A stretch of DNA of 36,197 nucleotides from a virus, in IMG/VR virus record IMGVR_UViG_3300043469_001328, positions 1 through 36,197 of that record, one strand, 5' to 3'. The position numbers and the translations under genes are program-made. Positions 6,278 through 35,749 of the stretch are shown here, one piece after another; within the stretch, counting starts at the first letter, position 1, and the number at the start of each line of letters is the position of its first letter. The notes under the pieces were generated by a model, which saw only the letters and a program-made list of their open reading frames with translations, had not been told where the DNA came from and searched no databases.

Positions 6278-7951
6278 TTATGACTCTTTACGTAACTCTC
6301 CTCCGTAATGTTCGAATCTATCGTGTTCAGTTGGTGTTAAAAGTAATAAACCTGATGATAATTCTCCTTTTTTGGCCAATTGATACATATGACTCATCCA
6401 TGTTTGTTCAAATGGGTGTGCCCATGTTGTGTCCAAAAACATTTTTTTATTTCCCGGTCTACTAACAATTTGAGGCCAGTTACAATAATAAACTTCACCC
6501 GAGCCATATGGTAAACCTTTGTGAGATAAAATTGATGAGAATTTAGTTTTTGGAGCATTAGGGTCTAATCCAAGATGAGGTAATGTTGGTTTTTCAGGCC
6601 AAAATTCTTCTCTAACTGATTGAGGTACGTTATACCAAGACCATTGAGTTCCGTTATCCCCATAAAACTCTGAATAATTAAGTTTTAAGAAGTCAAAATT
6701 TTCTTTCTGAATAATCTCTAATGACTTGGTGTATAAATTTGGAACATATCTATTAAAACCATTTCGGCAAACAGAACCTTCATTAGGGAAGAAAAACATA
6801 TCATCTTCAAAAAATAAATAATAATCTAAATCGGTTGTTTCAAAATGTTCGGCAATCCATTGTCTACCACCACAAATCCCAAGATTTTCTTTTTTTATGT
6901 GTTCAAACCCATGTTCTTCACATAGTTTCAAGTATTCCTCAGTCGTTGATAAATCAGTAGAATTATCCAACAAATACTTTTTAGTTTTTATTAAATAATC
7001 ATTATCATATGATTCAAATGATTTGATTAAAGTTCTAAATTGATTTGGACTATTAAATGTTAACACATAAAGACCAACTTTATTTGTATCTAAATTATTT
7101 ACCACACTAACTTTAGATTCATTTTTCGGAATTAATGTATCGTTTTTTAAATCCTCAAAAAATTTACCAACCAATCCATTAGAATCTATCTCAAAATAAT
7201 TAATCAAGTCTGAATGTTTATATGACATTATACTAAAGATTGATTCTTCAGTTCCCATATAACCTTCTCCAAGAGTTGATTTTAATAACCCATAATAAAT
7301 CGAATTAATATCCGCAATACTGTCTTTAGGTCCACCAAAAAATCCTCCTCGGGAAACTTTAGTAACTTTAGAACCTGCAATAGAATTTAACTTATCATAA
7401 TTAAATCCATGTATTTCTGTTTCCGCATCATAAGGAAAACTAATAAACGAAAATTTTGATATGTATTTCGATAACTTATCAAGAACATTATCGTGAGTAA
7501 AATACCCCGGATGAACAGTGTTTGTTAAACCACCGTCAATCCAAAACATATATTTAGAATCAAACTTATCAAATATTTTGGCGTCGTGTAAAAGAAACAC
7601 TTTTGACATAACCAATGGATTATAGTTTTCTAATTTTGCTTGAGTTGATTGTTCTAACCAACCCACTTGATTATACCAATTAGGGTTATTTCGTATGCCT
7701 TGGATAAGTGGGTTAAATTCTGAGTTAGAGAACCACTCTAAAGGTCTTTCAATAAATTGGGTGTTTGATTCATTCCTTTTTGTAAAAACAAATTCTCGAA
7801 GACTTTCATCCCCGAAAATTATCATATTTTCTTGAACATCTAATAGTTGTTCAAATTTATCCAAATAATGTTGGTAAGACCTTGACCACCCTTCGGTCAA
7901 ATCACTACGACCAATATCCCAAATACCGGTAACTAATGTAATATTACTCAT
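6278..7951 (-). CDS. two-domain glycosyltransferase: HtrL/YibB-like plus GT2-like
   Basis: A 557-residue soluble protein with two GT-A-type halves. Residues 1-270 resemble the HtrL/YibB family: the FWIDGGLTNT motif (137-145) stands in for the usual DxD site, and RGGFFGGPKD (201-210) and GTEESIFS (233-240) follow. From about residue 291 a second domain opens with KVGLYVLTFNSPNQFRTLI, the classic GT2 start, with an acidic EDD motif at 382-384 (YLFFEDDMFFF). The presumed role is transfer of two sugars, or transfer plus acceptor recognition, in a surface or virion glycan. Donor and acceptor cannot be read from the sequence. It overlaps the upstream gene by 8 bases (ATGAGTAA), which implies translational coupling. 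It is the last gene of the glycan cluster in transcription order. Confidence 0.82.
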   Translation of the reverse strand: MSNITLVTGIWDIGRSDLTEGWSRSYQHYLDKFEQLLDVQENMIIFGDESLREFVFTKRNESNTQFIERPLEWFSNSEFNPLIQGIRNNPNWYNQVGWLEQSTQAKLENYNPLVMSKVFLLHDAKIFDKFDSKYMFWIDGGLTNTVHPGYFTHDNVLDKLSKYISKFSFISFPYDAETEIHGFNYDKLNSIAGSKVTKVSRGGFFGGPKDSIADINSIYYGLLKSTLGEGYMGTEESIFSIMSYKHSDLINYFEIDSNGLVGKFFEDLKNDTLIPKNESKVSVVNNLDTNKVGLYVLTFNSPNQFRTLIKSFESYDNDYLIKTKKYLLDNSTDLSTTEEYLKLCEEHGFEHIKKENLGICGGRQWIAEHFETTDLDYYLFFEDDMFFFPNEGSVCRNGFNRYVPNLYTKSLEIIQKENFDFLKLNYSEFYGDNGTQWSWYNVPQSVREEFWPEKPTLPHLGLDPNAPKTKFSSILSHKGLPYGSGEVYYCNWPQIVSRPGNKKMFLDTTWAHPFEQTWMSHMYQLAKKGELSSGLLLLTPTEHDRFEHYGGELRKES

Positions 7952-8819
7952 TTATATTATTTAATTCTGTTAACATTTTATAAAAACTTTTGTTTTTTTG
8001 AAAAAATTCTTCACTTCCTTCTTTAAAATTATCGTGGTGCCACCAAATATCGAAGTTTAAAGTCTTAAACCATTCTTTATGATTTTGGTACATTAATGAC
8101 ATATAATGTTCCTCATAAAACAATCTTTTTTGTTCCGGTAAAATCAATTTAACATAGTCATCAAATTGTTTAACTACCTTATCCCACAACTCTGTTTTAC
8201 CCCCAAAAAATCCGCCAATGACATGAACACTGTTGTCGTATGTTGTATAGTATTTAGGGTCCACAGTACCTTCCCAATAATTTCTTGAATTTTCTTTTGC
8301 CACCATTACAAACTTATTGTCGGAATATTCAATTAAATTATTTAAAAAATTATCATTAAATAATGATGATTCATAGTAAAATCTATGACCTTGTCCTGAC
8401 AAGTATTTATTTGGTATTAAGCCTGTATGAGATAAACCAGCATCGAACCAAAAATAATAATCATAACTTTTATCCTCATTCTTAAACCAAGAAAATTTAG
8501 AGTATTGAATTTCGTAACATCTATCAGATGTTTTAATACCTTCAACATCTTTAACACTATTAATCAACTCTTGATATTCATTTTGTGATAAATCAAATAA
8601 AACAAATTTTAATCTATCTTCAGAAATTTCATGATTTTTATAAAAAAACTCTTTTAAGTCTTCTAATTCTCTTTCAGAGGTGTAACAGATAAAATCTGCT
8701 TGGGTCATTTTTAATAAAGACAATAAACTAAAACGATAGTGGTCTTTTCTCCCTGGCCTTCCACCAAGCTCAGAACCGTAAAGGTCTGAATAAATACTTG
8801 TTATAATCTTAACTCTCAT
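7944..8819 (-). CDS. HtrL/YibB-like glycosyltransferase
   Basis: A 291-residue protein related in layout to the N-terminal half of its downstream neighbour. It has an opening beta strand (MRVKIITSIYSDLYG), a central YFWFDAGLSHTG motif equivalent to WIDGG, then VIGGFFGGKTELWD and YEEHYMSLMY. These are hallmarks of the HtrL/YibB family, found in bacterial LPS clusters and assigned a GT-A-like fold. The sugar donor is unknown. It overlaps the genes on both sides, by 11 bases upstream and 8 bases downstream, so it belongs to a tightly coupled operon. Tandem copies of this family suggest duplication within the cluster. Confidence 0.8.
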   Translation of the reverse strand: MRVKIITSIYSDLYGSELGGRPGRKDHYRFSLLSLLKMTQADFICYTSERELEDLKEFFYKNHEISEDRLKFVLFDLSQNEYQELINSVKDVEGIKTSDRCYEIQYSKFSWFKNEDKSYDYYFWFDAGLSHTGLIPNKYLSGQGHRFYYESSLFNDNFLNNLIEYSDNKFVMVAKENSRNYWEGTVDPKYYTTYDNSVHVIGGFFGGKTELWDKVVKQFDDYVKLILPEQKRLFYEEHYMSLMYQNHKEWFKTLNFDIWWHHDNFKEGSEEFFQKNKSFYKMLTELNNINE

Positions 8820-9537
8820 TGTTGTTTCTTAATTCTAAACATTTATCATAATCTAAATATTTTCCATCTAATTTGTCCGGAAAATAAACATTCCAATTAT
8901 ACGTCATAACATAATGATTTGAATCAAATGTTTTGTTAATATCCGAATAATCTCTTTTTTGAACAACTAACGGTAATTTAGCAGAGAAGGATTTCATATT
9001 TGGGTAAACCGCTCTATCTAAAAACTCATCAATTGGAACTTGTTTATGACTATTTTCAATAATCACATTGGTATCCCATTGAACAATATATTCACACGCC
9101 TTTCTTGTTAAAATAAACCCTGAAGTACCAAAAATACCTCTGTGTTTGTCCGGGTCCTTTGGTGGTAATATTGTTAAATCAACTAACTCTTCGGAAAACT
9201 TACTAAGTGGTCTGTGAATTGATGGTGCAAAATGGAAAAAACTCCAATCATTATTACTCAACTCTTCTTCTATTAAAGGGATTAATTTTTTTGCGTACGG
9301 CATAAAAAAGATATCGTCTTCAAATACCATGGCATAATCATAACCTCTTTCTAAAATAATTTTAGCAACTTCTTGGTGAGAATAGGCACATCCTTCATAA
9401 CTGTTTGTATCAACCGCATTGAATCTTTCAAACGTCCAACCCATATAGTCAAACTCTTTTGTAACCGCCTCTAATCTATCAGGTCGTCTTTCAAGATTAA
9501 TTACAAATTTAGGTATTTCATTAAAATTAATTTTCAT
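8809..9537 (-). CDS. glycosyltransferase family 25 (LPS-type)
   Basis: A 242-residue protein with the GT25 signature: KFVINLERRPDRLEAV at the N-terminus (10-25), RFNAVD, GCAYSHQEVAKII (49-61) and the acidic metal/donor site MVFEDDIFF (E73-D75). The family transfers galactose, glucose or related sugars onto LPS; eukaryotic relatives glycosylate hydroxylysine of collagen. The length matches bacterial members. It overlaps both neighbours by 11 bases (ATGAGAGTTAA downstream and ATGAAAATTAA upstream). Its acceptor is unknown; its place between other transferases points to assembly of one oligosaccharide. Confidence 0.9.
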   Translation of the reverse strand: MKINFNEIPKFVINLERRPDRLEAVTKEFDYMGWTFERFNAVDTNSYEGCAYSHQEVAKIILERGYDYAMVFEDDIFFMPYAKKLIPLIEEELSNNDWSFFHFAPSIHRPLSKFSEELVDLTILPPKDPDKHRGIFGTSGFILTRKACEYIVQWDTNVIIENSHKQVPIDEFLDRAVYPNMKSFSAKLPLVVQKRDYSDINKTFDSNHYVMTYNWNVYFPDKLDGKYLDYDKCLELRNNNES

Positions 9538-10294
9538 ATATCAAATTTGTTTTATTATCATATCCTCTTCTGTGCGCAAAAATTACTGAATTTAATTCGA
9601 TTGCCTTTTGAAGGTTTCTATTAACATCGGTCCAATACCCAAAAATATCAATATCTTGGGTTGGACAATTATATCTTGATGATAGGATTGATAATACACT
9701 TTGGTCGTGTCTATGATTATCTTCAAAACCATCAACACAACCTTCAATTTGAGAATAATCCCAACCTTCGGTGATAATATGACTGTATTTACCATCACTT
9801 TTAAACCCAACTAATCCTGACCAAAGTTGATTATCCATTAGTTCTTCTTCAGTTGCATTCATTACCTCAACACATCTCTTGTGTGTATAATTTTTATTTA
9901 AGTGAATGTCACCAACTAAAAAGATATCTTCAGATTCAATAACATTAAAAATTGGTTCCAAACTTCTTAAGGCACAAGCACCGGCATCTAACCATAAAAC
10001 ATTTTTAGATAAACTCATAGAATGAAACAAAGTATACATTTTTAAAAAATGACATTTTGTTTTTATTGACGATATCCCTTCATAGATTTGAAAATCTTTT
10101 ACGATATCAACAATCATTATTTTTTTTAACGATTTCAATCGATTAATTTCTGTTTGGTCTAAACCAAAATCATAAACCACAATCATATCAACTAACTCAA
10201 AACTATCTTTATGGATACTATTAATTAGAGTTAGTAATGATTCAAAATAAGGACTATTCGCCCCTGTTATAACAATATTATTATACATTTTCAT
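9527..10294 (-). CDS. putative GT-A glycosyltransferase with WLDAG motif
   Basis: A 255-residue protein. It opens with a Rossmann-like strand, continues through an IVVYDFGLD segment and has a VLWLDAGACALRSLEPI motif (D103). That matches the WIDGG/WFDAG sites of the two HtrL-like neighbours and the GT8-like 'LWLDAD' layout. Near the C-terminus HRHDQSVLSIL resembles the 'xxDQ' donor-binding segment of GT8-type enzymes. The class is therefore likely, while donor and acceptor are open. ATG at 10294 or the in-frame ATG at 10288 could be the start; the latter would overlap the upstream stop by exactly 8 bases, the spacing seen elsewhere in the cluster. Confidence 0.72.
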   Translation of the reverse strand: MKMYNNIVITGANSPYFESLLTLINSIHKDSFELVDMIVVYDFGLDQTEINRLKSLKKIMIVDIVKDFQIYEGISSIKTKCHFLKMYTLFHSMSLSKNVLWLDAGACALRSLEPIFNVIESEDIFLVGDIHLNKNYTHKRCVEVMNATEEELMDNQLWSGLVGFKSDGKYSHIITEGWDYSQIEGCVDGFEDNHRHDQSVLSILSSRYNCPTQDIDIFGYWTDVNRNLQKAIELNSVIFAHRRGYDNKTNLIYEN

Positions 10295-11096
10295 TTAAAT
10301 AAGTTTGGATTATTTTTTCAGGGAACATATACTCTTTTGCTAATTCAAAGTTTTTCCTAACTGATTCTATTTTAGACATATAGTATTCACTATTTAATTT
10401 TTCTAAAATAGACGGTAATTCTTCATCACCTTCAAAATATATGATACCATTTTCATCAAAATAATTAGAAGTGTCTCGTGACCCAACATATACAGGAATT
10501 GTTCCGGTTAAGAAACAATCCAAAATCTTTTCAGTAAAGTACCCACTCTCAACACAATTTTCAATCACAATTGAAAACATATAATCTTTTAACGCATCAA
10601 TTTTAAATTCAATTTCTTTTTCACAACCTGACCCATAAAAATCAACTCTACCATCATCTTTTAATCTGTCATAAACTCTAAACCTCATTCTATGGTATGC
10701 GTTCCAATTTTTCCAAGAAAAAAGAGAACTAACCACTTTAGATTTTTCATGGATATTAATATCCTCTTCTCTCATCCAAGTTCCACCATGTGGGATATAC
10801 ACAGCATTTTCTGCTTGTGGTATTACATTTTTATGATGAGTGAAAATATATTTAAAATTTTCTTTATTCTTGATGATGTTAACATAGTTTTCACCATTAA
10901 TAATTGAAGGTTCAATTAACCAAGCACAATTTATTTTTGTTTCATCTATTGGTTGAGTAAAACACATACGGTCTACATAAACACCAATATCATATGTATC
11001 AGGTTCTCGTTCCCATCCGGTTTTAGGGTCAATGTATCTGGACAAACCAGGTTGTCCAACTAAGTTTTCGTCAATTAGTTTTGTTGTTTTAGACAT
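10281..11096 (-). CDS. GT10-like fucosyltransferase
   Basis: A 271-residue protein with the C-terminal donor-binding motif of alpha-1,3/4-fucosyltransferases (family GT10). FSIVIENC (174-181) and GYFTEKILDCFLTG (185-198) are followed by TIPVYVGS (199-206). The N-terminal half contains YIFTHHKNVIP and YIPHGGTW, typical of bacterial GT10 acceptor domains. The family uses GDP-L-fucose. The enzymes that make that donor, GDP-mannose 4,6-dehydratase and GDP-fucose synthase, are encoded at 33871-35749 in the same window, which strengthens the call. Some GT10 enzymes may accept other GDP-sugars. It lies 13 bases after the DegT aminotransferase gene and overlaps the next gene. Confidence 0.88.
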   Translation of the reverse strand: MSKTTKLIDENLVGQPGLSRYIDPKTGWEREPDTYDIGVYVDRMCFTQPIDETKINCAWLIEPSIINGENYVNIIKNKENFKYIFTHHKNVIPQAENAVYIPHGGTWMREEDINIHEKSKVVSSLFSWKNWNAYHRMRFRVYDRLKDDGRVDFYGSGCEKEIEFKIDALKDYMFSIVIENCVESGYFTEKILDCFLTGTIPVYVGSRDTSNYFDENGIIYFEGDEELPSILEKLNSEYYMSKIESVRKNFELAKEYMFPEKIIQTYLNENV

Positions 11097-11109
11097 TTTA
11101 ATTTTATTA

Positions 11110-12219
11110 TTAATTTATTGTATTTTTATCTTTAAGGTAGTTTATAATTTTTCCGGCAATAAAATCAACCTGACTATCGGTTAATTGAGGATATGATGGT
11201 AATATAAGACACTGTTCACTTAACATAACAGAGTTTGTATCCTCGTTTGGAATATGGGAAATATAATCGTGTTTTTTAATTTCGTAAAACATAGGTCTTG
11301 TATCAATACCTACATGAAACAAATAGAGTTCTAAATCTTTTTTCTGATTTAAAGTAAATTCGTTAAATCTTAACCCAAACATCCATTCAGAGTGTTCCGT
11401 TTCCGAATCTATTTTTTGAAATGAAATTCCTTCCACACCTTCAAAAATGGATTTATAACGATTAAATATTTTATGTTTTCTTTCTTTAATCTCATCTAAC
11501 GATTCTAACTGACCATACAAAATTGCCGCTTGAATATTAGTCATTCTATAATTATAACCTAAAACATCGTGAATGAATTTTTCATTTGATTGTCCCTGAG
11601 ATTTAACTTTATTAATGTATTCAAATACATCATCGTCATTTGTTATAAATGCACCACCCTCACCTGAAGTTATAGTTTTATTACCGAAGAAAGATATCGA
11701 TGAGGCAAATGATTCGGTACCTGTATATTTATCCCCATATTTACCCAAAAACCCTTCACAATTATCTTCTAAAATAACGGTGTCAGGAAATTCAATTTTT
11801 AATTTAGGTACGTTTACAATATTACCAATATTATGAACCACTAATATTGCGGTGTTTTCGTCAACCAAAGATTTTAATTTAGATGTGTCAAAATTCCAAG
11901 TTTCCAAATCAGAATCAATCGGTATCAATTCATAATTTTTATCAAATAAAAAAGAATTCCACGCAGCTACATATACATTGTTTGGTACAATAATTTTATT
12001 AATGTGAGGGTACTTATATTTTAAGGCAATTGCCAATAAATGTGTTGCAGTTGTACCATTATTAGTCAATATTAATCGTTTACACCCAAGAATTTCTTTT
12101 AATTTGTTTTTCGCTAAATCTAAGTATTCACCTTGAGATGAAACCCATCCGGAGTCAATTGCTTTATGTGCGTATTTTAAATTTTTTTGATTAAAATACG
12201 GTTGATAAATTGGTATCAT
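11110..12219 (-). CDS. DegT/StrS-family PLP aminotransferase, probable GDP-perosamine synthase type
   Basis: A 369-residue sugar aminotransferase. Residues seen: MIPIYQPYF and SGWVSSQGEY at the N-terminus, NNGTTATH (53-60) for the phosphate site, EDNCEG (151-156) for the PLP pyridine, and SFFGNKTITSGEGGAF with the Schiff-base lysine K181. YNYRMTNIQAAI follows. These phrases match perosamine synthases (RfbE/Per), which aminate GDP-4-keto-6-deoxymannose using glutamate. That substrate is the product of the dehydratase encoded at 34754-35749. Other DegT enzymes act on UDP- or TDP-keto sugars, so the specificity is inference. It overlaps the upstream FkbM gene by 4 bases (ATGA). Confidence 0.92.
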   Translation of the reverse strand: MIPIYQPYFNQKNLKYAHKAIDSGWVSSQGEYLDLAKNKLKEILGCKRLILTNNGTTATHLLAIALKYKYPHINKIIVPNNVYVAAWNSFLFDKNYELIPIDSDLETWNFDTSKLKSLVDENTAILVVHNIGNIVNVPKLKIEFPDTVILEDNCEGFLGKYGDKYTGTESFASSISFFGNKTITSGEGGAFITNDDDVFEYINKVKSQGQSNEKFIHDVLGYNYRMTNIQAAILYGQLESLDEIKERKHKIFNRYKSIFEGVEGISFQKIDSETEHSEWMFGLRFNEFTLNQKKDLELYLFHVGIDTRPMFYEIKKHDYISHIPNEDTNSVMLSEQCLILPSYPQLTDSQVDFIAGKIINYLKDKNTIN

Positions 12220-12857
12220 ATTTTTATAAAGTAAGCGTTATTATCTTTAGTTAAATCAAATTTGTAATTTAATTCATCTAAAAATGATTTTATGTTGTCT
12301 AACCCAACATGAGGATATTCAACACACAAAATTTGAGGTAAAAATTTTGAGTTTTTCATCCCTTCTAAAACTTCTATTTCGTAACCTTCAACATCTAAGA
12401 CAAATAAATCGATAGTTTGGTCATGAAAGTTTTCATTCATTAATTTATCTATAATATTATCATATCTCGTTGAAATAACATTATACTCTTCAAAATGACA
12501 TCCTTCATGGTTTAATAAATCTTCGTGTGTCATTTTGTGTTTAAATGAACCATTACCAAACTTAGTCCCATGATATGGATGTACGGCGTGTTTGAATTTT
12601 AAAGTTGTTTCTTCACTACCTAAACCCAAATTAAAATTGTGTGATTTAGTTCTATTTGATTTTAACATCTCAAAAATTGGTGGAGATGCTTCAATATTGA
12701 TACAAGTCCACCCTAAATTTTCTTCAAAAAATAAAGTTGACGACTCCATTACACCATCAAATGCTCCACATTCAATACTAATCCCTTTTTCTTTATTTTG
12801 AAAATACCTCTCAAAAATAAACTTATCCTGTTCAGATTGTCCGTAAAATTTATACAT
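12216..12857 (-). CDS. FkbM-family methyltransferase
   Basis: A SAM-dependent O-methyltransferase of the FkbM class, often found capping or decorating glycans. Motif I is ISIECGAFDG and the acidic end of the ribose strand is CINIEAS. The family's DLFVLDVEGYEIEVLEGM segment follows. An ATG at 12941 would give 28 extra residues, but it would overlap the upstream gene by 92 bases. The ATG at 12857 opens MYKFYGQSEQDKF, the usual beginning of this domain, and overlaps the upstream stop by 8 bases (ATGTATAA), the same spacing as elsewhere in the cluster. I therefore prefer 12857. The methyl acceptor is unknown. Confidence 0.87.
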   Translation of the reverse strand: MYKFYGQSEQDKFIFERYFQNKEKGISIECGAFDGVMESSTLFFEENLGWTCINIEASPPIFEMLKSNRTKSHNFNLGLGSEETTLKFKHAVHPYHGTKFGNGSFKHKMTHEDLLNHEGCHFEEYNVISTRYDNIIDKLMNENFHDQTIDLFVLDVEGYEIEVLEGMKNSKFLPQILCVEYPHVGLDNIKSFLDELNYKFDLTKDNNAYFIKI

Positions 12858-13671
12858 TTTGTATTTCTCTGATATAGTCATCAAAATTGATGAAAATTTG
12901 TTTATTATGCTCTGTTTGAAATTGATAAAAAATGTCCTCATTTACTAACGACAATAATTTATCCGTAAATAATGACATACAGAAAAAACCTCCTCCGCCC
13001 ATCATTATTATTTTTTTTGAATTTAATATTAAAGTTAAATCATTAATTATATTTTCAAGGTTAATTCCTTCAGAGGAATAATCATCTTTAGTTAAATCAA
13101 TAATTTTATTTTTATCTATGTTTTTAATGTATTCATCATACAATGAATATACCATTTCATTACCAATAATTGAATACTCCCCGGTGTAGTTTACATTTTT
13201 TTCCCCAAGTAATATTATTTTTGAATCTATCGAATTTAAAGTATTAAAAAAAAATTCAGAATGTTGTTGAAAATTTGATAAATGGAAATTTCTTGATTTA
13301 GTAAATAATACAACATGATTTTTATATTCATCATTAATAGAATCATTAGAAAACTTTTTCTTAAAAATATTCTTTATTCTATCATCAGTTAACATTTTAT
13401 CGATGTAATCTCTATTAACTTCCCAAGTTTTTTCTGGATTAGTTTCACATTCTAAAACAACAAAATCACTCAAAATAAACTTAACATAGTCGATACAAAA
13501 TTTTTTATACGATTCACTTCCGTCCCTATACAAATTTAGATTAGTTTCATTAATCTTTATCTCTAAAACGTCTTCTTTGTTTAAACGTAATAACATTTCT
13601 CCGCAAAAGAATGTTAAATCCCCTATACCGATATTTTTTAATTCATATTTATGTGTTATTGATTTTTCCAT
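12850..13671 (-). CDS. glycan-cluster protein, possibly GT-B-like transferase
   Basis: About 273 residues, without a firm family match. An early KNIGIGDLTFFCGEML segment resembles the glycine-turn opening of GT-B/GT9-type enzymes (compare HLGMGDSV in the gene at 14439-15140). Alternating strands follow (HVVLFTKSR, KIILLGEKNV), then SKKIIMMGGGGFFCMSLF near the C-terminus, which looks like a nucleotide-sugar loop. These features suggest a two-Rossmann transferase, but lineage-specific divergence is high. The open frame begins with TTG at 13692; the ATG at 13671 (MEKSITHK) is the better start. It is extremely AT-rich, more so than its neighbours. Polysaccharide pyruvyl transferase is an alternative. 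Confidence 0.62.
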   Translation of the reverse strand: MEKSITHKYELKNIGIGDLTFFCGEMLLRLNKEDVLEIKINETNLNLYRDGSESYKKFCIDYVKFILSDFVVLECETNPEKTWEVNRDYIDKMLTDDRIKNIFKKKFSNDSINDEYKNHVVLFTKSRNFHLSNFQQHSEFFFNTLNSIDSKIILLGEKNVNYTGEYSIIGNEMVYSLYDEYIKNIDKNKIIDLTKDDYSSEGINLENIINDLTLILNSKKIIMMGGGGFFCMSLFTDKLLSLVNEDIFYQFQTEHNKQIFINFDDYIREIQNV

Positions 13672-13692
13672 TTTAATAAAAAAAAAAATCAA

Positions 13693-14001
13693 TTAATATG
13701 TTTTATGTGCTCTCTGTAAAAATTTACCGTTATCTAAATCCTCACCATTTAATTTTGCTTCAATTATTTCAATAATTTTTGAGTCAACCTCATTTATTAA
13801 TTGATTTCTTTGAACATTTAAGTCGCATGCCTTTTTTAATGTCTCCCAAAGTAAATTAGCCCCACTTTCGTCGTTAAAGTATTTTTCCTTATACTCTTCA
13901 AAAGTCATTCTTCTTATATCGTATAATAACTCCTGATTATCCCACATTTTCATGTCAACTGTTACTAATTTATCAATAACGTTTCCTAATGTATCTGCCA
14001 T
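13693..14001 (-). CDS. small helical glycan-cluster protein, function unknown
   Basis: A 102-residue, all-helical, charged protein beginning MADTLGNVIDKLVTVDMKMW and ending GKFLQRAHKTY. It has no transmembrane segment or signal peptide. The recurrent phrases (KMW-x-NQELLYDIRRM, KKACDLNVQRNQLI, NGEDLDNGKF) look strongly conserved. As I recall, similar small proteins accompany glycosyltransferases in bacterial and phage surface-sugar clusters, but I cannot name the family. The fold suggests a four-helix bundle that could bind a partner transferase; that is speculation. It lies 5 bases after the GNAT gene. Confidence 0.75.
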   Translation of the reverse strand: MADTLGNVIDKLVTVDMKMWDNQELLYDIRRMTFEEYKEKYFNDESGANLLWETLKKACDLNVQRNQLINEVDSKIIEIIEAKLNGEDLDNGKFLQRAHKTY

Positions 14002-14006
14002 AATTT

Positions 14007-14438
14007 TTATTTATTTAAGTTTTTATTTAATTTCATTATATGATAAGTAGGGTGAGTTTCAATAATATGAAATTCTTTTTTCATATAAACTGATATTGCA
14101 ACATGATTATCAATATCAACCGACAATAAGATATCCGAATTAGAATTTAGTATCAAATCATCCATAATCTTACTCCCTATTTTTTTTCCGGTTTCTGTAT
14201 CCCCAACCAAAATTCCTAACCATACAATATCGTCTTCAGTATCTAAATGACCATAACCAACACATTTATCACCATCATAGTATAGACAGGTATAAATGTG
14301 ATTTTTAACAACTTTGTAAGGTCTTTTTGAAAAATATCTAAACTTGTTAGTCCCAATAGGATTATTTTTAATGAAGTCATCTAAATCAATCAATGACGAA
14401 TAATCTTTGTGATTTATAATTTTTTTAATCAAATCCAT
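14007..14438 (-). CDS. GNAT-family N-acetyltransferase
   Basis: A 143-residue acetyltransferase of GNAT fold. The central beta-bulge segment DIVWLGILVGDTETGKKIGSK carries the acetyl-CoA pyrophosphate loop (T-G-K-K-I-G) and is followed by ILLSVDIDNHVAISVYMKKEF, the typical strand-helix that closes the site. It starts directly after the stop of the GT9-like gene with no gap. In a cluster with a perosamine-synthase-like DegT enzyme, acetylation of an amino sugar is the obvious candidate reaction, but GNAT specificity cannot be read from sequence, and known perosamine acetylases often belong to the left-handed beta-helix class instead. Confidence 0.85.
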   Translation of the reverse strand: MDLIKKIINHKDYSSLIDLDDFIKNNPIGTNKFRYFSKRPYKVVKNHIYTCLYYDGDKCVGYGHLDTEDDIVWLGILVGDTETGKKIGSKIMDDLILNSNSDILLSVDIDNHVAISVYMKKEFHIIETHPTYHIMKLNKNLNK

Positions 14439-15140
14439 TTATAAAGTTTTAATGTCGTGTTTATTAACGTATGGTGATATAAATTGTCTATCACAATACA
14501 TATGTGCAATAACGTTTTCATTATATTTTTTACACATCATCAAACTTAAAAAAGAACTACTAATAATATTAACCGATTTAGCGTTCTCAATAACCTTCAA
14601 TAAACTAAACATCCCGTACTGTGGTTCAGCCGTAATGATAGGATAATCAGGTTTTAATAATTCTCTATTGATTTTTATGTTTTCTTCATCCTTTTCATGA
14701 ACAAAATGATAATCATGAATTCCTTTACTAACAATTAATTCGTAGTAAACCTTTTCTTCTAATTCATAATCCCTTTCAATATAAAAATAATCTTGTTTAA
14801 TTTTTGGGTCCATCCCAACAATTAAATAAAAAGAATCGTCAAAATATTTTTCATAACGATATCCCATATTATCGCAAAAATGGGAAGAAATAATCTTATC
14901 AAAATTTTCATTTTTAATAAAATGTTCCATTTCACCATCGTTTAACACACTTTTGACTTTAATCCTTGGGTTATCTCTAAACATAAACACTACGTTATTA
15001 TGGTAGTGATGTTTAGCCGCAATATGAATTTCGGAATTTGGGTTATCTTCTGCAATTTTACGTATCATACCGTTATGAACTACAGAGTCACCCATACCTA
15101 AATGGTGTTTCACAAATATTTTTAAAGGTTCCCCACTCAT
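14439..15140 (-). CDS. GT9/heptosyltransferase-like glycosyltransferase
   Basis: A 233-residue protein opening with LKIFVKHHLGMGDSVVHNGM, the glycine-rich first loop of ADP-heptose:LPS transferases (GT9) and related GT-B enzymes, followed by IHIAAKHHYHNNVVFMF. The C-terminal half has PIITAEPQYGMFSLLKVIENA and SVNIISSSFLSLMMCKKY, resembling the GT-B donor loop where a surveillance-like SSFLS turn binds the nucleotide. It is shorter than typical heptosyltransferases (about 320-350), so one subdomain may be reduced. It lies 2 bases after the GT60-like gene and abuts the GNAT gene. Confidence 0.68.
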   Translation of the reverse strand: MSGEPLKIFVKHHLGMGDSVVHNGMIRKIAEDNPNSEIHIAAKHHYHNNVVFMFRDNPRIKVKSVLNDGEMEHFIKNENFDKIISSHFCDNMGYRYEKYFDDSFYLIVGMDPKIKQDYFYIERDYELEEKVYYELIVSKGIHDYHFVHEKDEENIKINRELLKPDYPIITAEPQYGMFSLLKVIENAKSVNIISSSFLSLMMCKKYNENVIAHMYCDRQFISPYVNKHDIKTL

Positions 15141-15142
15141 AA

Positions 15143-16408
15143 TTAACTAACGTGATTATGAGTTATTCTTCCGGTAATTCTATCACACCATCCTTTTGAT
15201 TCTGAATAAGGCCATACAACCCAATAATCAGGTAATGCGTCTGTTTGGAACTCTCTCCAAATCTTACAATAACCATCAGGGTCTCTTAACATTCCCGCAA
15301 TTTCTGCTTTGTCAGCATCTTTTCTAAATAAAGTTTCATCTTTATTATTGTGGAATGCAACCACCCAAAATTCATAATCTTTTTCAGGAACACTTGTATA
15401 TCCAACATCAATACAATGTTTGAATACCATACAAAAACTATTTTTCCATTCTTCTTCGGTTTCAAAGTTATAAGGGTTTGGTGGATATCCTTTGTCTAAT
15501 GTATGTTTATCAATTGCTCTTTTTTCAAATAAAAGACCTGAATATTTTTCATACTCTTTTAATGTTCTAACAGGTCCAAATCCGTAAGGTCCGTCATGAC
15601 CTTCTTGTTCCTCTCCATCCATACCAAATAATTTTCTATTTGTGTGATGAGAGTGTCTATTTTTTTCTCCCCATGTTTTATCATCATCCCATTGTTTTGT
15701 TCTACCCTTACGAGTATATTCGTGAAACACAACAGGAAGATGTGGATGAAATAAATCATAACCCCAAGTGTATGCTCGTGCTGCAATTGAAATTTCTTCA
15801 CCGTGGAAATAATATTCCGGATTATGTTGTACCTCAATTGAGAAAGCACCTAAAGTAAAACAAAAGTGTGCTGAGTAAAATCTTGCGGTCACAGGTTTTT
15901 TTAATTCTTTCCATCCCGGAATAGTTTCAGGTAAGAAGAAGACAGCTCCTTCAGGAATAAATCTATCAAAGACCATTCTCCATGGTTCATTAATTCTACT
16001 CTCCGGATAATTTTCGGGGTCAAAAGATGGGACGTAACCCGTAAGTAGAGGCTTTTCGTATCCATCCTTCTGTAACCCCTTAATCATTTTTATTAAGATA
16101 TCATCCCAATCTTTAACAAATCTCATATGAGAATCAATTTGAAGAGTATACGTTTCACCTTCATAAAGTTGTTGGGTTAGATTTCTTGCCCAACAAACAC
16201 CTTTAGACTCTTCGTAAGGAATATCAAGTATTCTAAATCTTTTGTCTTTTCTGTAATCTTCTAATTTATCAAAACCATCTTCTTCACTGAATTGTCTTGC
16301 AATTCCAAATGTGATATTTTTAGGCTTCTTGGCGTTTGCCAACATATCTTTGATTGTTGGTTCTAATTGTGGGTCTCTATAGGACGCGATTTGAACAAAT
16401 ATTTTCAT
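15143..16408 (-). CDS. GlcNAc-transferase, GT60-like (PF11397 type)
   Basis: A 421-residue protein. It has MKIFVQIASYRDPQL at the start, GVCWARNLTQQLYEGETYTL (70-89) and the D-x-H metal/donor site QIDSHMRFVKDWD (D92, H94). Further on, YYFHGEEISIAARAYTWGYD and PHLPVVFHEYTR complete the family pattern. Named members of this group (GT60) are polypeptide alpha-GlcNAc transferases: the Dictyostelium Skp1 hydroxyproline enzyme and the Trypanosoma cruzi enzyme acting on threonines of mucins. In this window it is the first gene after three Thr/Pro-rich proteins on the same strand, which makes those linkers plausible acceptors (inference). A terminator separates it from them, and a TATAAT lies 2 bases before its ATG. 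Confidence 0.9.
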   Translation of the reverse strand: MKIFVQIASYRDPQLEPTIKDMLANAKKPKNITFGIARQFSEEDGFDKLEDYRKDKRFRILDIPYEESKGVCWARNLTQQLYEGETYTLQIDSHMRFVKDWDDILIKMIKGLQKDGYEKPLLTGYVPSFDPENYPESRINEPWRMVFDRFIPEGAVFFLPETIPGWKELKKPVTARFYSAHFCFTLGAFSIEVQHNPEYYFHGEEISIAARAYTWGYDLFHPHLPVVFHEYTRKGRTKQWDDDKTWGEKNRHSHHTNRKLFGMDGEEQEGHDGPYGFGPVRTLKEYEKYSGLLFEKRAIDKHTLDKGYPPNPYNFETEEEWKNSFCMVFKHCIDVGYTSVPEKDYEFWVVAFHNNKDETLFRKDADKAEIAGMLRDPDGYCKIWREFQTDALPDYWVVWPYSESKGWCDRITGRITHNHVS

Positions 16409-29759: not shown

Positions 29760-31385
29760 ATGATAACAGTAGGATATTCGACAAGAACTCATAACCCAGA
29801 GTTCATTGAATACTTGAAGAAAAGTTCAGGTTTCAAAAAAATTGAGGTTATTGAAAAAATAAATAATGGTGAAAAATCTCTTTCAGAGGTTTACAATGAA
29901 ATACTATCCGAGTCAAAGACGGATATTGTTGTTTTATGTCACGACGACATTTATTTTGATACTAACGCATGGTATAGTAAATTAATTAAACATTTTGAAA
30001 AATCTGATTTCGGTATTATTGGAATGGCAGGAACTACTGAAATGCCTGAAAGCGGTATGTGGTGGGAAAACAGAAAAAAAATGGTAGGTATTGTTAACCA
30101 CGAACATGAAGGGAAAAAATGGGAATCAAAATACTCAGAGAGTATTGGTAATAACATTTTTGAAACTGTGATTGTTGACGGTCTTTTTATGGCAATTAAT
30201 AAGAAAAAAATTAAGAAAAACTTTAACGAAAATTTTAAAGGATTTCACTTCTATGATATACCATTTTGTTTTGATAACTATTTGGAAGGTGTTAAAGTAG
30301 GTGTTATAACAAACATCAGAATAACTCACAAATCTATTGGTCAAACTAATGAACAATGGGAAGAAAACAAAAAATTATTCGCAGAAACATATAAATCAAA
30401 TTTACCGGTTAAATTACCGTACAATGAACAAAGAAAGATAAAAGTATTATTATCTTGTTTATTCTTTAAAACATTTACGGGTTCAGAGCTTTATGTTTAT
30501 GAATTAGCTAAAAATTTAATAAAACAAAATTGTGATGTAACCGTAATGTCCCAAATTGGAGGACCGTTAACGGACATGGCAAAAAAACAAGGTATTAAAT
30601 GTGTTTCTTTTGAGGACGCTCCCGGATTTAAAATGGGTGACGGAAAATGGGGGCATAACACAGATAAAGGGTTTCAACCATCTCAACCAAATGTAATGTA
30701 CCGAGTGTCAGAAGTTAATTTTGATTTAATACATATGCAACACAAACCTGTCGCAGAAAGAATGATTCAATTCTATCCTGAGATTGATAAAATTTATTCA
30801 ATCCATTCAGAAGTGATTGAATTGGAAAACCCTATTGAACACGAATCAATTAAAAAATACATTGCAATTAGACCTGAAATTAAAGATTATTTAATTAATT
30901 TTTTCCAAATACCTGACGAGAAGATTGAAGTTATTTATAATCCTATCGATAATGAAAAATTCAAACCAAAATCAATTAAAGAAGAAAATAGTGTTCTTTT
31001 TGTTGGAACAATTGATTACCTACGAAAAGAAACAATCTTAGATTTAATGGAACGAACTAAGGAAGAAGGTAAAGAATTATGGCTAGTTGGGGAAGATAAA
31101 GGAAATTACCTACAACAAGTATTGTTTGAAACTCACGTAAAACATTTTCCACCAACATGGAATGTGGAAACATTTATTTCTAAATGTTCTGAAACGGCAG
31201 GCATTCAGTTAGGAAGAACAACTATTGAAGGTTGGTTATGTGGAAAACCTGGTTGGATTTATAAAGTTGATTCAGGAGGATTTATTTTAAATAAAGAAAA
31301 GTTTGAGGTACCGACAGATTTAGAAAAATATTATGCTTCAACTGTCTCAAAACAAATAAAAGAAGAATACATTAAAATATTGTAA
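29760..31385 (+). CDS. GT2-like/GT4-like fusion glycosyltransferase
   Basis: A 541-residue protein with two transferase domains. Residues 1-220 are a GT-A domain (MITVGYSTRTHNPEFIEYL, VLCHDDIYF with D62/D63, then GIIGMAGTTEMP and HDxxx-type EQWEENKKLF). From about 226 a GT-B domain starts with RKIKVLLSCLFFKTFTGSEL and contains IYSIHSEVIE, SVLFVGTIDYLRKE and GRTTIEGWLCGKP, the last resembling the GT4 donor helix. Two transfers may be done by one chain, giving a fixed disaccharide. No membrane segment, so the acceptor is soluble or protein-bound. It starts one base after the dUTPase stop. Confidence 0.88.
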   Translation: MITVGYSTRTHNPEFIEYLKKSSGFKKIEVIEKINNGEKSLSEVYNEILSESKTDIVVLCHDDIYFDTNAWYSKLIKHFEKSDFGIIGMAGTTEMPESGMWWENRKKMVGIVNHEHEGKKWESKYSESIGNNIFETVIVDGLFMAINKKKIKKNFNENFKGFHFYDIPFCFDNYLEGVKVGVITNIRITHKSIGQTNEQWEENKKLFAETYKSNLPVKLPYNEQRKIKVLLSCLFFKTFTGSELYVYELAKNLIKQNCDVTVMSQIGGPLTDMAKKQGIKCVSFEDAPGFKMGDGKWGHNTDKGFQPSQPNVMYRVSEVNFDLIHMQHKPVAERMIQFYPEIDKIYSIHSEVIELENPIEHESIKKYIAIRPEIKDYLINFFQIPDEKIEVIYNPIDNEKFKPKSIKEENSVLFVGTIDYLRKETILDLMERTKEEGKELWLVGEDKGNYLQQVLFETHVKHFPPTWNVETFISKCSETAGIQLGRTTIEGWLCGKPGWIYKVDSGGFILNKEKFEVPTDLEKYYASTVSKQIKEEYIKIL

Positions 31386-31386
31386 G

Positions 31387-32544
31387 ATGAGAATTGGAGT
31401 TATTGGTGCAAATACATTAGGAGTTGCTTTTTCATTACTTTGTGAAAATGCGGGATATGATGTAATAATTTATGATGAAAATGAAGATATCATTTTTAAC
31501 ATAAATCAAGAAATTTTTAACACAAAAGAACCATTGATTCAAAAAATGTTATTTGAGTCAGACAATTTTTCGGGTACTACAAATGTAATTGACTTAATAG
31601 AAAAATCTAATACTATCTTCACATTTGTTGATACTGTCCCAACCTTAGAAGGTGGGAATGACACTACAAAAGTTTTTGAAGTTGTTAATCATTTTTTTAC
31701 CGCATCTCAATTAGATAAACCAATTCATGATAAAAAATTTATAATTGGTACCACAATGAATCCCGGAGAAACTGAACAAATTCAAGAAAAGTTACATATG
31801 TTTAACATACAAGTTGCATATTGTCCGTCAATGTCATCAGAAGGTAATATAATTAACGGATACTACAATTCAGATATGGTTATTGTTGGGTCAGAATACC
31901 AAGAATTGTCAAACGAACTAATGAGGTTATTCTCTAAAATACAACCAAATGGACTTAATATTTATACTATGTCTTCAAAAGCGGCTGAAATCGCTAAACT
32001 ATCAATAAACACTTTCTCATCAATGAAAATAAGTTTTATTAATATGTTAGGGGATTTATTCGTTAAATCCGGTTTGGAAAATGAAAGTGGTCTTATTTTA
32101 AGTACAATAAGTAAAGATTCAAGAGTTGGAACAAAATCATTAAAATACGGATTTGGATATGGGGGTATTAATCTCCCGAGAGATACAAAAACGTTAACTG
32201 ATTATTTAACAAAATACGATATAGACACAACATTAATTACATCAATTAAAGAAAGTAATGAAAATCATTCCAAATTCTTAAAAGAACATTACATATCTCA
32301 AAACCCAAATAAAGACATTCCTTTTATTATTGAAGACATAGGGTTTAAGAAAGGTACGGACAATTTAGTTAATTCACAACCGTGGAATCTTTGTATTGAA
32401 TTACTCAATGAAGGATATCATATTGGGGTAATTGATAACCACCAACTCGGTAATCAATTCAATGAATTGTCTTTGTCTTATAATAACAGACTTAAATTTT
32501 ATAAATCAGGGACAAAACCTGAAGGATATCTAATCAAACTATAA
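31387..32544 (+). CDS. UDP-glucose/GDP-mannose dehydrogenase-like protein lacking catalytic Cys
   Basis: A 385-residue member of the family that oxidises UDP-glucose or GDP-mannose to uronic acid. The NAD loop is MRIGVIGANTLGVAF (G7, G12); helix EIAKLSINTF keeps the conserved K204 and N208; GTTMNPGETEQ and the C-terminal Rossmann part (IEDIGFKKGTDNL) follow. The catalytic segment, usually GFGGSCFPKD, reads GFGYGGINLPRD (255-266): the essential cysteine position is N262. Without the thiol the second oxidation step cannot run as known. The protein may bind NAD and nucleotide sugar, catalyse only one step, or have changed role. Gene order places it in a sugar operon, 1 base after the GT fusion. 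Confidence 0.88.
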   Translation: MRIGVIGANTLGVAFSLLCENAGYDVIIYDENEDIIFNINQEIFNTKEPLIQKMLFESDNFSGTTNVIDLIEKSNTIFTFVDTVPTLEGGNDTTKVFEVVNHFFTASQLDKPIHDKKFIIGTTMNPGETEQIQEKLHMFNIQVAYCPSMSSEGNIINGYYNSDMVIVGSEYQELSNELMRLFSKIQPNGLNIYTMSSKAAEIAKLSINTFSSMKISFINMLGDLFVKSGLENESGLILSTISKDSRVGTKSLKYGFGYGGINLPRDTKTLTDYLTKYDIDTTLITSIKESNENHSKFLKEHYISQNPNKDIPFIIEDIGFKKGTDNLVNSQPWNLCIELLNEGYHIGVIDNHQLGNQFNELSLSYNNRLKFYKSGTKPEGYLIKL

Positions 32545-33209
32545 TGAAATTATTAATTAAATTCCCAACAAGAAATCGTAAGAATAAATTTTTTACAGTA
32601 TTAAAACAATATCAAAGATTATGTGAAGATATTGAGAACACATTTTTTCTAATAACTTTAGATAATGATGATGATGAAATGAATTCACCTGAGGTTGCCG
32701 ATATTTTTACCACATTTAAGAATATAAAATATGTTTATGGAAATAGTGTTTCTAAAATTCATGCGGTAAATAGAGACATTGAAACTGTAGATGAATGGGA
32801 CATCGTATTATTGGCGTCTGATGATATGACCCCAAAAGTTAAAGGATATGATAATATTATTCGTAATAAAATGAAAGAACATTATCCCGACACTGATGGT
32901 GTTTTATGGTTTAATGATGGCCACCAAGGAAATAAATTAAACACTCTATGTATTTTAGGTAAAAAATATTACGAAAGATTTAACTATATCTACCACCCTG
33001 AATACAAATCAGTTTGGTCAGATAATGAGTTTATGCTAGTTGGTAATCTTTTACAAAAACAAACTTATTTTGATGAAGTTATCATTGAACATGAACATCC
33101 TGATTGGGGGTATGGCAAACGAGATACTATTCATCAAGTAAATTCAATAAATGAAAGCCATGATAGAAACTTATTTATGAGTAGAAAACAAAATAACTTT
33201 TATCTATGA
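32544..33209 (+). CDS. GT2-like glycosyltransferase
   Basis: A 221-residue GT-A-type protein. MKLLIKFPTRNRKNKFFTVL is the GT2 start, ITLDNDDDEM the donor strand, and IVLLASDDMTPK (with SDD) the metal site. The C-terminus has EHEHPDWGYGKRD and NESHDRNLFMSRK, which fit the acceptor side. It is short but complete for a single-domain enzyme. TAATG overlap with the dehydrogenase-like gene and ATGA overlap with the next gene show tight coupling. Confidence 0.82.
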   Translation: MKLLIKFPTRNRKNKFFTVLKQYQRLCEDIENTFFLITLDNDDDEMNSPEVADIFTTFKNIKYVYGNSVSKIHAVNRDIETVDEWDIVLLASDDMTPKVKGYDNIIRNKMKEHYPDTDGVLWFNDGHQGNKLNTLCILGKKYYERFNYIYHPEYKSVWSDNEFMLVGNLLQKQTYFDEVIIEHEHPDWGYGKRDTIHQVNSINESHDRNLFMSRKQNNFYL

Positions 33210-33859
33210 AAAAAGTAATTAGTTTTTCCCTTTGGGGTGATAACCCTAAGTATACTATAGGTGCCATAAGAAATGCGGAATTAACATCAATCATTTATCC
33301 CGGATGGATTTCAAGATTTTATTGTGGTGAGTCTGTTCCAACAGATATTATTAAAACGTTAATTTCTTTACCAAACACTGAAGTTGTTATGATGGGTGTT
33401 GATGGGGACTGGACAGGTATGTTTTGGAGATTTTATGCTTGTGAAGATTCAGAGATAATGTTATCAAGAGATACTGACTCAAGATTAAATTTAAGAGAAA
33501 AATTAGCGGTTGACGAATGGTTATCATCTGATAAAGATTTTCATATAATGAGAGACCATCCTTATCATAATACCGAAATTTTAGGTGGTATGTGGGGAGT
33601 AAGAAATGGATTATTAAAAAATATAAAAGAATTAATTAATGATTACACTAAAGGTGATTTTTGGCAGGTTGACCAAAATTTTTTAAGAGAAAAAATATAC
33701 CCTTCAGTAATTAATAATAGTTTTACACATGATTCTTATTTGAATTATAATACTAATTCAAAACCATTTCCATCCGAAAGAATAAACAGAGAATTTGTTG
33801 GTGACGTTTTTGACGAAAATGAAAATAGACACCCCGAATATTATTTAAACATTTATTAA
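33206..33859 (+). CDS. conserved glycan-cluster protein, GT-A-like
   Basis: A 217-residue protein with phrases recurring in bacterial surface-sugar clusters: VISFSLWGDNPKYTIGAIRN, IIYPGWISRFY, FWRFYACED, MLSRDTDSRLNLREKLAVDEW and HIMRDHPYHN, ILGGMWGVRNG. RDTDSR looks like a DxD-type metal site, so a GT-A transferase is likely although I cannot assign a CAZy family. Length and order agree with the known small hypothetical group. It ends 11 bases before the GDP-fucose synthase gene. Confidence 0.75.
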   Translation: MKKVISFSLWGDNPKYTIGAIRNAELTSIIYPGWISRFYCGESVPTDIIKTLISLPNTEVVMMGVDGDWTGMFWRFYACEDSEIMLSRDTDSRLNLREKLAVDEWLSSDKDFHIMRDHPYHNTEILGGMWGVRNGLLKNIKELINDYTKGDFWQVDQNFLREKIYPSVINNSFTHDSYLNYNTNSKPFPSERINREFVGDVFDENENRHPEYYLNIY

Positions 33860-33870
33860 AAAAAAACAAT

Positions 33871-34773
33871 ATGAAAAAATTATTAGTAACAGGTGGTCAC
33901 GGTTTAGTGGGGTCGTCAATAACCGCAGATTTTAAGACAGGTCGAGAATTTGATTTAACCAATTTTGATGAAACTCAAAAGATGTTTGATAAATATAAAC
34001 CAACGCAAGTAATTCATTGTGCTGGTAAAGTTGGAGGAGTTGGTGGTAATATGAACTACAAAGGAGAATATTTTTATGACAACATAATGATAAACACCAA
34101 TGTTATTGAATCTGCAAGAAGAAATGGAGTTGAGAAATTAGTATCTTTTTTATCAACTTGTGTATTTCCGGATAATGTAGAATACCCTTTAACTGAATCT
34201 AAAATTCATTTAGGAGAACCACATAATTCGAATTACCCTTATGCTTACGCTAAGAGAATGGCTGATATTCAAATTCGGGCGTACAGAGAACAATATGGTT
34301 TAAATTATGTTTCGGTTATTCCAACAAACATATATGGACCAAATGATAATTTTTCATTATCTCAAGGTCACGTAATGCCGATGTTAATACATAAACTTTA
34401 TTTGGCACAAAAAAATAATACCGATTTCACAGTATGGGGGTCAGGTAATCCTTTAAGAGAATTTATTTTTTCAAAAGACGTTGCAAAACTTTCCGAATGG
34501 GCGGTAGACCACTATAACGAATCTGAACCAATCATATTTACAACATCAAATGAGATTAGTATTAAGGATTTAGTTGATTTATTGGTAAAAGAATTTAACT
34601 TTAAGGGGAAGGTTACTTTTGATTCGTCAAAACCGGATGGTCAATTTAGAAAACCATCAGATAACGGTAAATTAAAATCGTATTTACCCGATTTTCAATT
34701 TACACCAATCGAAGAAGGTATAAAAGAAACCGTAAGTTGGTTTATAAAAAATTATGAAAATGTTAGAAAATAA
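33871..34773 (+). CDS. fcl: GDP-L-fucose synthase
   Basis: A 300-residue extended SDR enzyme that epimerises and reduces GDP-4-keto-6-deoxymannose to GDP-L-fucose with NADPH. The cofactor loop is LLVTGGHGLVGSS (G8, G11, G14). VIHCAGKVGGVGGN marks the GMER class. The catalytic set is S95 with C97 (SFLSTCVFP), Y124-x-x-x-K128 (PYAYAKRM) and H167 (QGHVMP), matching E. coli WcaG. The length is near the usual 310-320. Its stop lies 20 bases inside the following dehydratase gene, which supplies its substrate. Confidence 0.95.
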   Translation: MKKLLVTGGHGLVGSSITADFKTGREFDLTNFDETQKMFDKYKPTQVIHCAGKVGGVGGNMNYKGEYFYDNIMINTNVIESARRNGVEKLVSFLSTCVFPDNVEYPLTESKIHLGEPHNSNYPYAYAKRMADIQIRAYREQYGLNYVSVIPTNIYGPNDNFSLSQGHVMPMLIHKLYLAQKNNTDFTVWGSGNPLREFIFSKDVAKLSEWAVDHYNESEPIIFTTSNEISIKDLVDLLVKEFNFKGKVTFDSSKPDGQFRKPSDNGKLKSYLPDFQFTPIEEGIKETVSWFIKNYENVRK

Positions 34774-35749
34774 AATAGCCTTAATCACAGGAATTAACGG
34801 TCAAGATGGTTCTTATCTTGCAGAATTCTTACTACAAAAAGGGTATGAAGTTCATGGGACTTTGAAACGTAATTCCGTTGCGGAAAATCAAACATCAAGA
34901 TTAGACTCTATCTATGATAAAATTAAATTACACTACGCAGATTTAACTGATTTATCATCATTAATCAGTGTTATTCAAAAAGTAAATCCGGATGAGATTT
35001 ATAATTTGGCGGCGCAATCTCACGTTAGAATATCTTTTGACCAACCATTATACACGGCAAACGTTACAGGTGTTGGAACTTTAAATGTGTTAGAGGCAGT
35101 TAAGTTAATTAAACCAAACACTAAAATTTATCAGGCTTCTTCTTCTGAAATGTTTGGAAACTCTATTGACTCGGATGGATATCAACGAGAAACAACCCCA
35201 TTGAATCCTGTATCACCATATGGATGTGCAAAAGTTTTTAGTTATAATATTTGTCGTAACTATCGTAATTCATACGGAATGTTTATTTCTAACGGTATTT
35301 TATTTAATCACGAATCACCAAGAAGAGGAACTAATTTTGTCACAAACAAAGTTTGTAAAGAGGCGGTTAAAATTAAATTAGGATTATCAACAGAATTGAA
35401 GTTAGGTAATTTGGACGCAACAAGAGATTGGGGTCACGCTAAGGATTATGTTGAAGCAATGTGGTTAATATTACAACAGGAAACTTCAGACGACTTTGTT
35501 TGTTCAACAGGAATATCACATTCAGTTAAAGATTTATGTGAATACGTTTTTAATAAATTAGAGTTAGATTACAATGAATATGTAAAACTTGATGAGAAAT
35601 TTTTAAGACCCGAAGAATTACATAACCTTAAAGGAGACTCAACAAAACTAAAAGAGATTACAGGTTGGACACCCGAATACACTTTTGAAAGTATGTTGGA
35701 TGAAATGATTGAATATTGGTTAAACCACTATAAATTAAATAAAAAGTAA
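34754..35749 (+). CDS. gmd: GDP-mannose 4,6-dehydratase
   Basis: A 331-residue SDR enzyme that converts GDP-mannose to GDP-4-keto-6-deoxymannose, the branch point to GDP-fucose, GDP-rhamnose and GDP-perosamine. ALITGINGQDGSYLAEFLL (9-27) is the NADP loop and NLAAQSHV the family strand. YQASSSEMFG carries the catalytic Ser/Glu (E132), and YGCAK gives Y156 and K160. RDWGHAKDYVEAMW (about 225) completes the signature. It may start at ATG 34754 or 34760, overlapping fcl by 20 or 14 bases. A short leader of two bases separates its stop from phoH. Confidence 0.97.
   Translation: MKMLENKIALITGINGQDGSYLAEFLLQKGYEVHGTLKRNSVAENQTSRLDSIYDKIKLHYADLTDLSSLISVIQKVNPDEIYNLAAQSHVRISFDQPLYTANVTGVGTLNVLEAVKLIKPNTKIYQASSSEMFGNSIDSDGYQRETTPLNPVSPYGCAKVFSYNICRNYRNSYGMFISNGILFNHESPRRGTNFVTNKVCKEAVKIKLGLSTELKLGNLDATRDWGHAKDYVEAMWLILQQETSDDFVCSTGISHSVKDLCEYVFNKLELDYNEYVKLDEKFLRPEELHNLKGDSTKLKEITGWTPEYTFESMLDEMIEYWLNHYKLNKK

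Follow-up and report, generated by a model that had tools for sequence, protein, structure and literature searches.

The dehydrogenase gene and its cassette

The window, the whole 36,197-nucleotide stretch analyzed here, is a 36-kb IMG/VR virus fragment with genes for a DNA polymerase, a dUTPase and PhoH and numerous sugar genes. An ORF on its plus strand runs intact from ATG through stop and encodes a 385-residue homologue of the NDP-sugar dehydrogenases. The features of this gene and its neighbors are:

29760–31385 (+): glycosyltransferase fusion (PF13712 and PF13439), upstream, a conserved neighbor in both clades (Pfam, synteny)
31385–31387 (+): glycosyltransferase/dehydrogenase junction, where Cys-type relatives such as L020 have a NadE-like gene (locus comparison)
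31387–32544 (+): NDP-sugar dehydrogenase homologue, 385 residues, Asn262 for the catalytic Cys (Pfam, PHROG, alignment, structure model)
31405–31422 (+): Rossmann loop GANTLG, residues 7–12, with Asn9 at 31411–31413 (Gly in 40/40 Cys-type rows, Asn in 7/7 Asn rows)
31822–31842 (+): sugar-pocket loop CPSMSSE, residues 146–152, with Ser148 at 31828–31830 and the new Cys146 at 31822–31824 (alignment; PMC4794789)
31996–32010 (+): retained Lys204 and Asn208 (invariant in alignment A3)
32155–32184 (+): active-site loop GYGGINLPRD, residues 257–266, with Asn262 at 32170–32172 and the retained Asp266 at 32182–32184 (alignment)
32544–33859 (+): two downstream genes, of 221 residues (PHROG 14945 glycosyltransferase) and 217 residues (function unassigned), also downstream in the Cys-type locus L020 (PHROG, synteny)
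33871–35749 (+): GDP-L-fucose synthase-like and GDP-mannose 4,6-dehydratase-like genes, downstream in the cassette (Pfam, profile matches)

The gene for the 221-residue protein overlaps the dehydrogenase stop. An earlier note on this DNA had described the dehydrogenase gene as intact and embedded in a sugar operon, and both statements hold: the ORF is complete, none of 11 full-length relatives carries a stop or frameshift, dN/dS is ~0.11, and the gene lies in a sugar cassette, flanked by glycosyltransferase and GDP-sugar genes. The window also contains a second sugar cassette (6278–16408, minus strand), which encodes a DegT/DnrJ aminotransferase, GT10 and GT25 glycosyltransferases, an FkbM methyltransferase, a GNAT acetyltransferase and an HtrL/YibB-like protein. 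Whether this aminotransferase (11110–12219) might act on a C6 aldehyde was considered, but the idea found no support: the gene lies in a separate cassette on the opposite strand, and the usual substrates of the DegT/DnrJ family are keto sugars.

Assignment of the ORF to its family is supported by Pfam matches above the curated thresholds (PF03721, 65.2 bits with a cut-off of 27; PF00984, 66.5 bits with a cut-off of 25.4), by a match to PHROG 9148, “UDP-glucose dehydrogenase” (E 7e-68), and by a structure model (pLDDT 91.1, pTM 0.89) that has the UGDH fold over the whole chain (Z 40.9 with 365 residues aligned to 1dli). By fold and descent, the window protein is thus a UDP-glucose/GDP-mannose dehydrogenase homologue and a member of the NDP-sugar dehydrogenase family. 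It lacks three residues that serve as criteria for the four-electron NDP-sugar dehydrogenases, and it falls below the curated cut-off of TIGR03026 (nucleotide sugar dehydrogenase; 172.4 bits against 189.8), which the Cys-type sister protein of L020 exceeds (195.0 bits). At 21–25% identity, it shares with the short bacterial UDP-glucose 6-dehydrogenases from S. pyogenes (1dli) and C. jejuni (Cj1441; 7kws) the whole fold, a length of ~390 residues, the FGYGG loop, Lys204, Asn208, the loop Asp and Lys321, but has Asn in place of the Cys nucleophile, Ser in place of the PE glutamate and Asn in place of the second Rossmann Gly.

Substitutions in the active site and ligand pockets

In the family mechanism, oxidation at C6 is initiated by a water molecule that an Asp activates; the Cys is engaged first in a thiohemiacetal and next in a thioester, from which hydrolysis releases the uronate (PMC3184952; PMC4794789). 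The active-site loop of the window protein reads GFGYGGINLPRD, and alignment to 7kws, which places the window loop FGYGGINLPRDTK on FGYGGYCLPKDTK, puts Asn262 (codon AAT) at the position of the nucleophilic Cys; in the model Asn262 opens the helix 262–275, as expected of that position. No displaced Cys was found within the active-site loop, the only new Cys being Cys146.

A scan of IMG/VR yielded 13 loci with 76–100% identity to the window protein, of which 12 span the active site. All 12, on separate contigs, have Asn at the nucleophile site, preceded by Ile or Leu, and the codon is AAT in the seven rows compared. Profile searching extended the set by a sister group (L020–L046, L053 and L068; 48–57% identity), by phage forms of greater divergence and by 80 bacterial ones; the Cys is kept in every homologue of these three kinds that was tabulated, including 40/40 Cys-type homologues of the comparison. 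When IMG/VR was searched for the loop codon pattern with a codon not beginning with T at this site, a pattern that overlooks non-Cys codons that do begin with T, 11 stretches were returned, all from the Asn clade, whereas the Cys version had no fewer than 120; among 295 genomes of one related bacterial class the non-Cys loop occurs in none and the Cys loop in 264. The 40/40, viral and bacterial counts show that the Asn is no chance occurrence. Since Asn is common to all 12 relatives covering the site, Asn262 is not a sequencing error, and these relatives together with dN/dS also rule out a local pseudogene. Alignment to the solved homologues and to phage and bacterial sequences therefore bears out the replacement of the catalytic Cys by Asn262 that the earlier note had described, with Asn conserved throughout the clade and Cys elsewhere; Lys204, Asn208 and Asp266, which it had listed as remaining, are all present.

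Further changes accompany Asn262. The active-site Cys belongs to a set of 18 residues reported to be invariant across 229 family members (PMC4794789), of which the window protein keeps 14; lost are Gly9 (Asn9), Glu141 of the PE motif (Ser148; Ser or Thr within the Asn clade) and Cys260 (Asn262), and the invariant Ser117 is Thr122, at a site that varies in relatives too. The second Gly of GxGxxG is Gly in all 40 Cys-type rows and Asn in all seven Asn rows, with Gly7 and Gly12 retained; no useful example of another Rossmann protein with Asn in place of this Gly emerged from a search. The sugar-pocket loop reads CPSMSSE in the window protein versus NPEFIAQ in the sister clade, and its Cys146 is invariant within the Asn clade and is Asn at the same position in 38/40 Cys-type rows. 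The residues of the first oxidation step (Lys204, Asn208, Asp264 and Thr118 of the family) are kept as Lys204, Asn208, Asp266 and Thr123, all four invariant across the Asn clade. The window protein also keeps Asp30, Thr83, Glu201, Arg246 and Lys321.

Across the 40 Cys-type rows, 71 columns reach a conservation of 90% or more, and 17 of these differ in every one of the seven Asn rows (columns 9, 16, 85, 146, 148–151, 182, 212, 261, 262, 267, 274, 278, 320 and 329). With loop boundaries set post hoc, the sister-invariant columns are changed more often in the NAD and sugar pocket loops (32/67) than elsewhere (34/147; Fisher p 4e-4). The mapped family-invariant positions are changed in 3/17 cases versus 14/54 for the other conserved columns (p 0.75) and so show no preferential retention; survival of Lys204, Asn208 and Asp266 is for this reason no proof of catalysis by itself.

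Tyr10 and Arg327, present in 98–99% of the family (PMC4794789), are already replaced by Arg and Glu, respectively, in the Cys-type sister group, implying that the ancestral dehydrogenase was unusual too. More broadly, the GGPC-type dehydrogenases of L020–L166 (PEFIA[QL]G … GGPC[FL]PRDN) have Arg or Lys for Tyr10, with Glu for Arg327 in the viral sister group, and may represent an additional group acting on a substrate of their own.

Descent, selection and the NadE-like partner gene

A maximum-likelihood tree unites the Asn rows in a single clade (support 100/100) within the Cys-type viral group, which shows that the Asn-type gene arose from a viral enzyme of the Cys type. The stem of the clade is long, at 0.63 changes per column; along this branch the nucleophilic Cys was replaced by Asn262, the PE glutamate by Ser148 and the second Rossmann Gly by Asn9. 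The median identity of the dehydrogenases falls from 78% within the sister group to 52% between the Asn and sister groups. The four upstream syntenic genes show no such excess divergence (median identities between groups and within the sister group of 81/82, 75/71, 80/81 and 63/62%). Both ligand pockets were thus rewritten in one burst confined to the dehydrogenase gene, with its neighbors evolving at the normal rate. Within the Asn clade the median dN/dS is 0.113, compared with 0.096 in the sister group and 0.03–0.09 for neighboring genes; the gene has been under purifying selection since the Asn change and is not decaying. A burst followed by constraint fits a change of role and subsequent selection rather than decay.

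The Cys-type phage dehydrogenases of PHROG 9148 are direct orthologues of the window protein (L020 group, 48–57% identity; cyanophages S-SSM7 and P-TIM68, 35–39%). They keep the Cys, PEF and GxGxxG and nearly all adjoin a NadE-like gene, whereas the window protein is without all four. By sequence, the NadE-like protein (PF02540; above the TIGR00552 cut-off) is a regular NAD synthetase family member. In both the sister group and the cyanophages its gene precedes the dehydrogenase gene, either immediately or at a short distance, and in L020 the two genes have overlapping stop and start codons. The NadE-like gene flanks 68/72 Cys-type viral loci and no Asn-clade locus (the upstream side of L018 being outside the data). 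PF02540 was absent from 10/10 Asn-clade records searched, including ones of 309, 178, 152 and 112 kb, all of which are fragments beyond which nadE could lie, and present in 12/15 other records. A second, active dehydrogenase was considered as a substitute in the Asn genomes; none was found in these 10 records, which as fragments could have one beyond their ends.

L020 has the flanking genes of the window on both sides (the glycosyltransferase upstream and two genes downstream) in addition to NadE and the Cys, and so likely preserves the ancestral gene order. Loss of nadE can precede the Cys change and does not force it, since three loci without nadE are Cys-type: L062 and L065 lack the gene and retain the Cys, and L035 (941–982) bears an in-frame deletion scar, MDRIIDLKENEII, in which the opening codons of nadE run directly into its final ones. 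The scar lies between the glycosyltransferase gene and a normal Cys-type dehydrogenase gene. Because the Asn clade is a single lineage, its association with the absence of nadE represents one event and no statistical proof. Elsewhere in the clade, L010, L012, L014 and L015 (2675–7002) keep the Asn-type dehydrogenase amid other sugar genes, with GT92-like and GT2 genes upstream and PhoH directly downstream.

Among the viral loci examined (L001–L005 and L020–L086), nearly all have a NadE-like gene next to or near the Cys-type dehydrogenase, and from gene order the pair resembles a phage module, possibly for a uronamide. Pairing as a general bacterial trait was rejected, being seen in 6/80 bacterial loci only, one of them viral-looking. 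A Saprospiraceae-binned contig (L087, DKPS01000260.1) also has the pair; its dehydrogenase groups with phage sequences in the tree, and the contig is probably viral.

Possible present roles of the Asn-type protein

We consider it likely that the window gene is a viral NDP-sugar 6-dehydrogenase orthologue with a changed role, acquired after loss of the Cys-dependent four-electron oxidation. Judged from sequence, the Asn-type protein probably no longer makes sugar acids and is kept by selection for another job; repurposing perhaps followed loss of a coupled uronate-using step. On balance, we favor a course in which the phage lineage turned a four-electron enzyme into a two-electron or non-catalytic protein after losing the coupled NadE-like uronate ligase. 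The ancestral dehydrogenase would have made an NDP-uronate, the carboxylate of which the NadE-like, ATP-dependent ligase would have amidated or otherwise used. With nadE lost, uronate would no longer have been needed and the dehydrogenase would have been free to change and be repurposed. The present protein would be expected to keep the UGDH fold and NDP-sugar binding; without the thiol, neither thiohemiacetal nor thioester could form, and conversion of an NDP-hexose to an NDP-uronate would not be expected; at the least, the second oxidation step would depart from that of the family. Its new role may be either that of an NAD(H) enzyme transferring two electrons reversibly at C6 by means of Lys204, Asn208 and Asp266, or that of a non-catalytic binding protein or scaffold.

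These two roles appear about equally likely. A tentative case can be made for an enzyme that binds NAD(H) and an NDP-sugar and carries out the first step alone, a reversible oxidation of the C6 alcohol to the aldehyde, or runs this step as a reduction, or else oxidizes an aldehyde hydrate provided to it, as suggested by the retention of Asp30, Thr83, Thr123, Glu201, Lys204, Asn208, Asp266, Arg246 and Lys321. Human UGDH C276A, which cannot finish the reaction from UDP-Glc, still oxidizes added aldehyde (PMC3184952), so that the earlier statement that the thiol is required for the four-electron oxidation is correct for the complete reaction but not for the aldehyde step. Against such an enzyme stand the Asn at the second GxGxxG Gly with its altered surroundings, the fact that the retained catalytic residues are conserved no better than other conserved columns, and the lack of an obvious C6-aldehyde user among the neighboring genes. 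With Gly9 gone from the NAD loop and no preferential retention of the family-invariant residues, a non-catalytic role becomes about as likely. A protein that has given up catalysis and binds a nucleotide sugar, or that partners or scaffolds the cassette glycosyltransferases or a host enzyme, is a similarly tentative proposal. It would accommodate the joint loss of three catalytic or cofactor residues, the second Rossmann Gly included, the loss of the NadE-like partner gene and a dN/dS somewhat higher than that of the neighbors, although not readily the invariance of Lys204, Asn208, Asp266 and Thr123 in the clade. The nuclear factor n-pac (2uyy), which is among the structure matches and belongs to the same superfamily, is a dehydrogenase-fold protein with a non-enzymatic role.

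Continued uronate formation, with Cys146 as a displaced nucleophile or by direct oxidation of the aldehyde hydrate, is improbable. Cys146 is invariant in the Asn clade, is Asn in most Cys-type rows and lies two residues from the former catalytic Glu, but in the solved structures of the family its counterpart is directed away from the nucleophile site; it faces the residue before Ser117 and positions the PE loop (PMC4794789), making a relocated nucleophile here unlikely. Moreover, the Chryseobacterium-binned L118 has a Cys146-type Cys in addition to the normal Cys, the NadE-like partner is lost, and loss of both the Cys and the PE Glu makes uronate formation unlikely. We regard it as very improbable that the gene is a decaying relic that lost its function with nadE: the missing partner, the long stem and a dN/dS above that of the neighbors would fit, but dN/dS is far under 1 and similar to that of the intact sister enzyme, stops and frameshifts are absent, and the gene is retained in two different gene contexts. 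Of the earlier proposal that a changed reaction is likelier than decay, the changed role is sustained by the intact frame, the conserved Asn and dN/dS, but not the specific suggestion of a single oxidation to an aldehyde, a non-catalytic role being about equally likely.

Mutants of human UGDH (C276A/C276S and E161Q) and BceC (Y10K/Y10S) remove the same or neighboring second-step residues (PMC3184952; PDB titles), but these are single laboratory changes, whereas the Asn clade is a natural lineage in which several changes were fixed together. In a literature search of incomplete coverage, we found no report of a natural Cys-less UGDH or of an NDP-sugar dehydrogenase pseudoenzyme. Amidated glucuronic acid occurs in the C. 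jejuni capsule, where it is produced by other enzymes (PMC12409886); the dehydrogenase/NadE-like pair in phage sugar cassettes may be a phage route to amidated uronic acids. Automatic annotation would label the whole Asn clade UDP-glucose dehydrogenase, probably wrongly. The close Cys-type orthologues with identical gene order provide matched controls for the loss or change of two-step oxidase chemistry. If the Asn-type gene was repurposed in this way, which is somewhat more likely than not, it would offer an example of enzyme repurposing in nature that can be dated, and the first Cys-less branch of the family.
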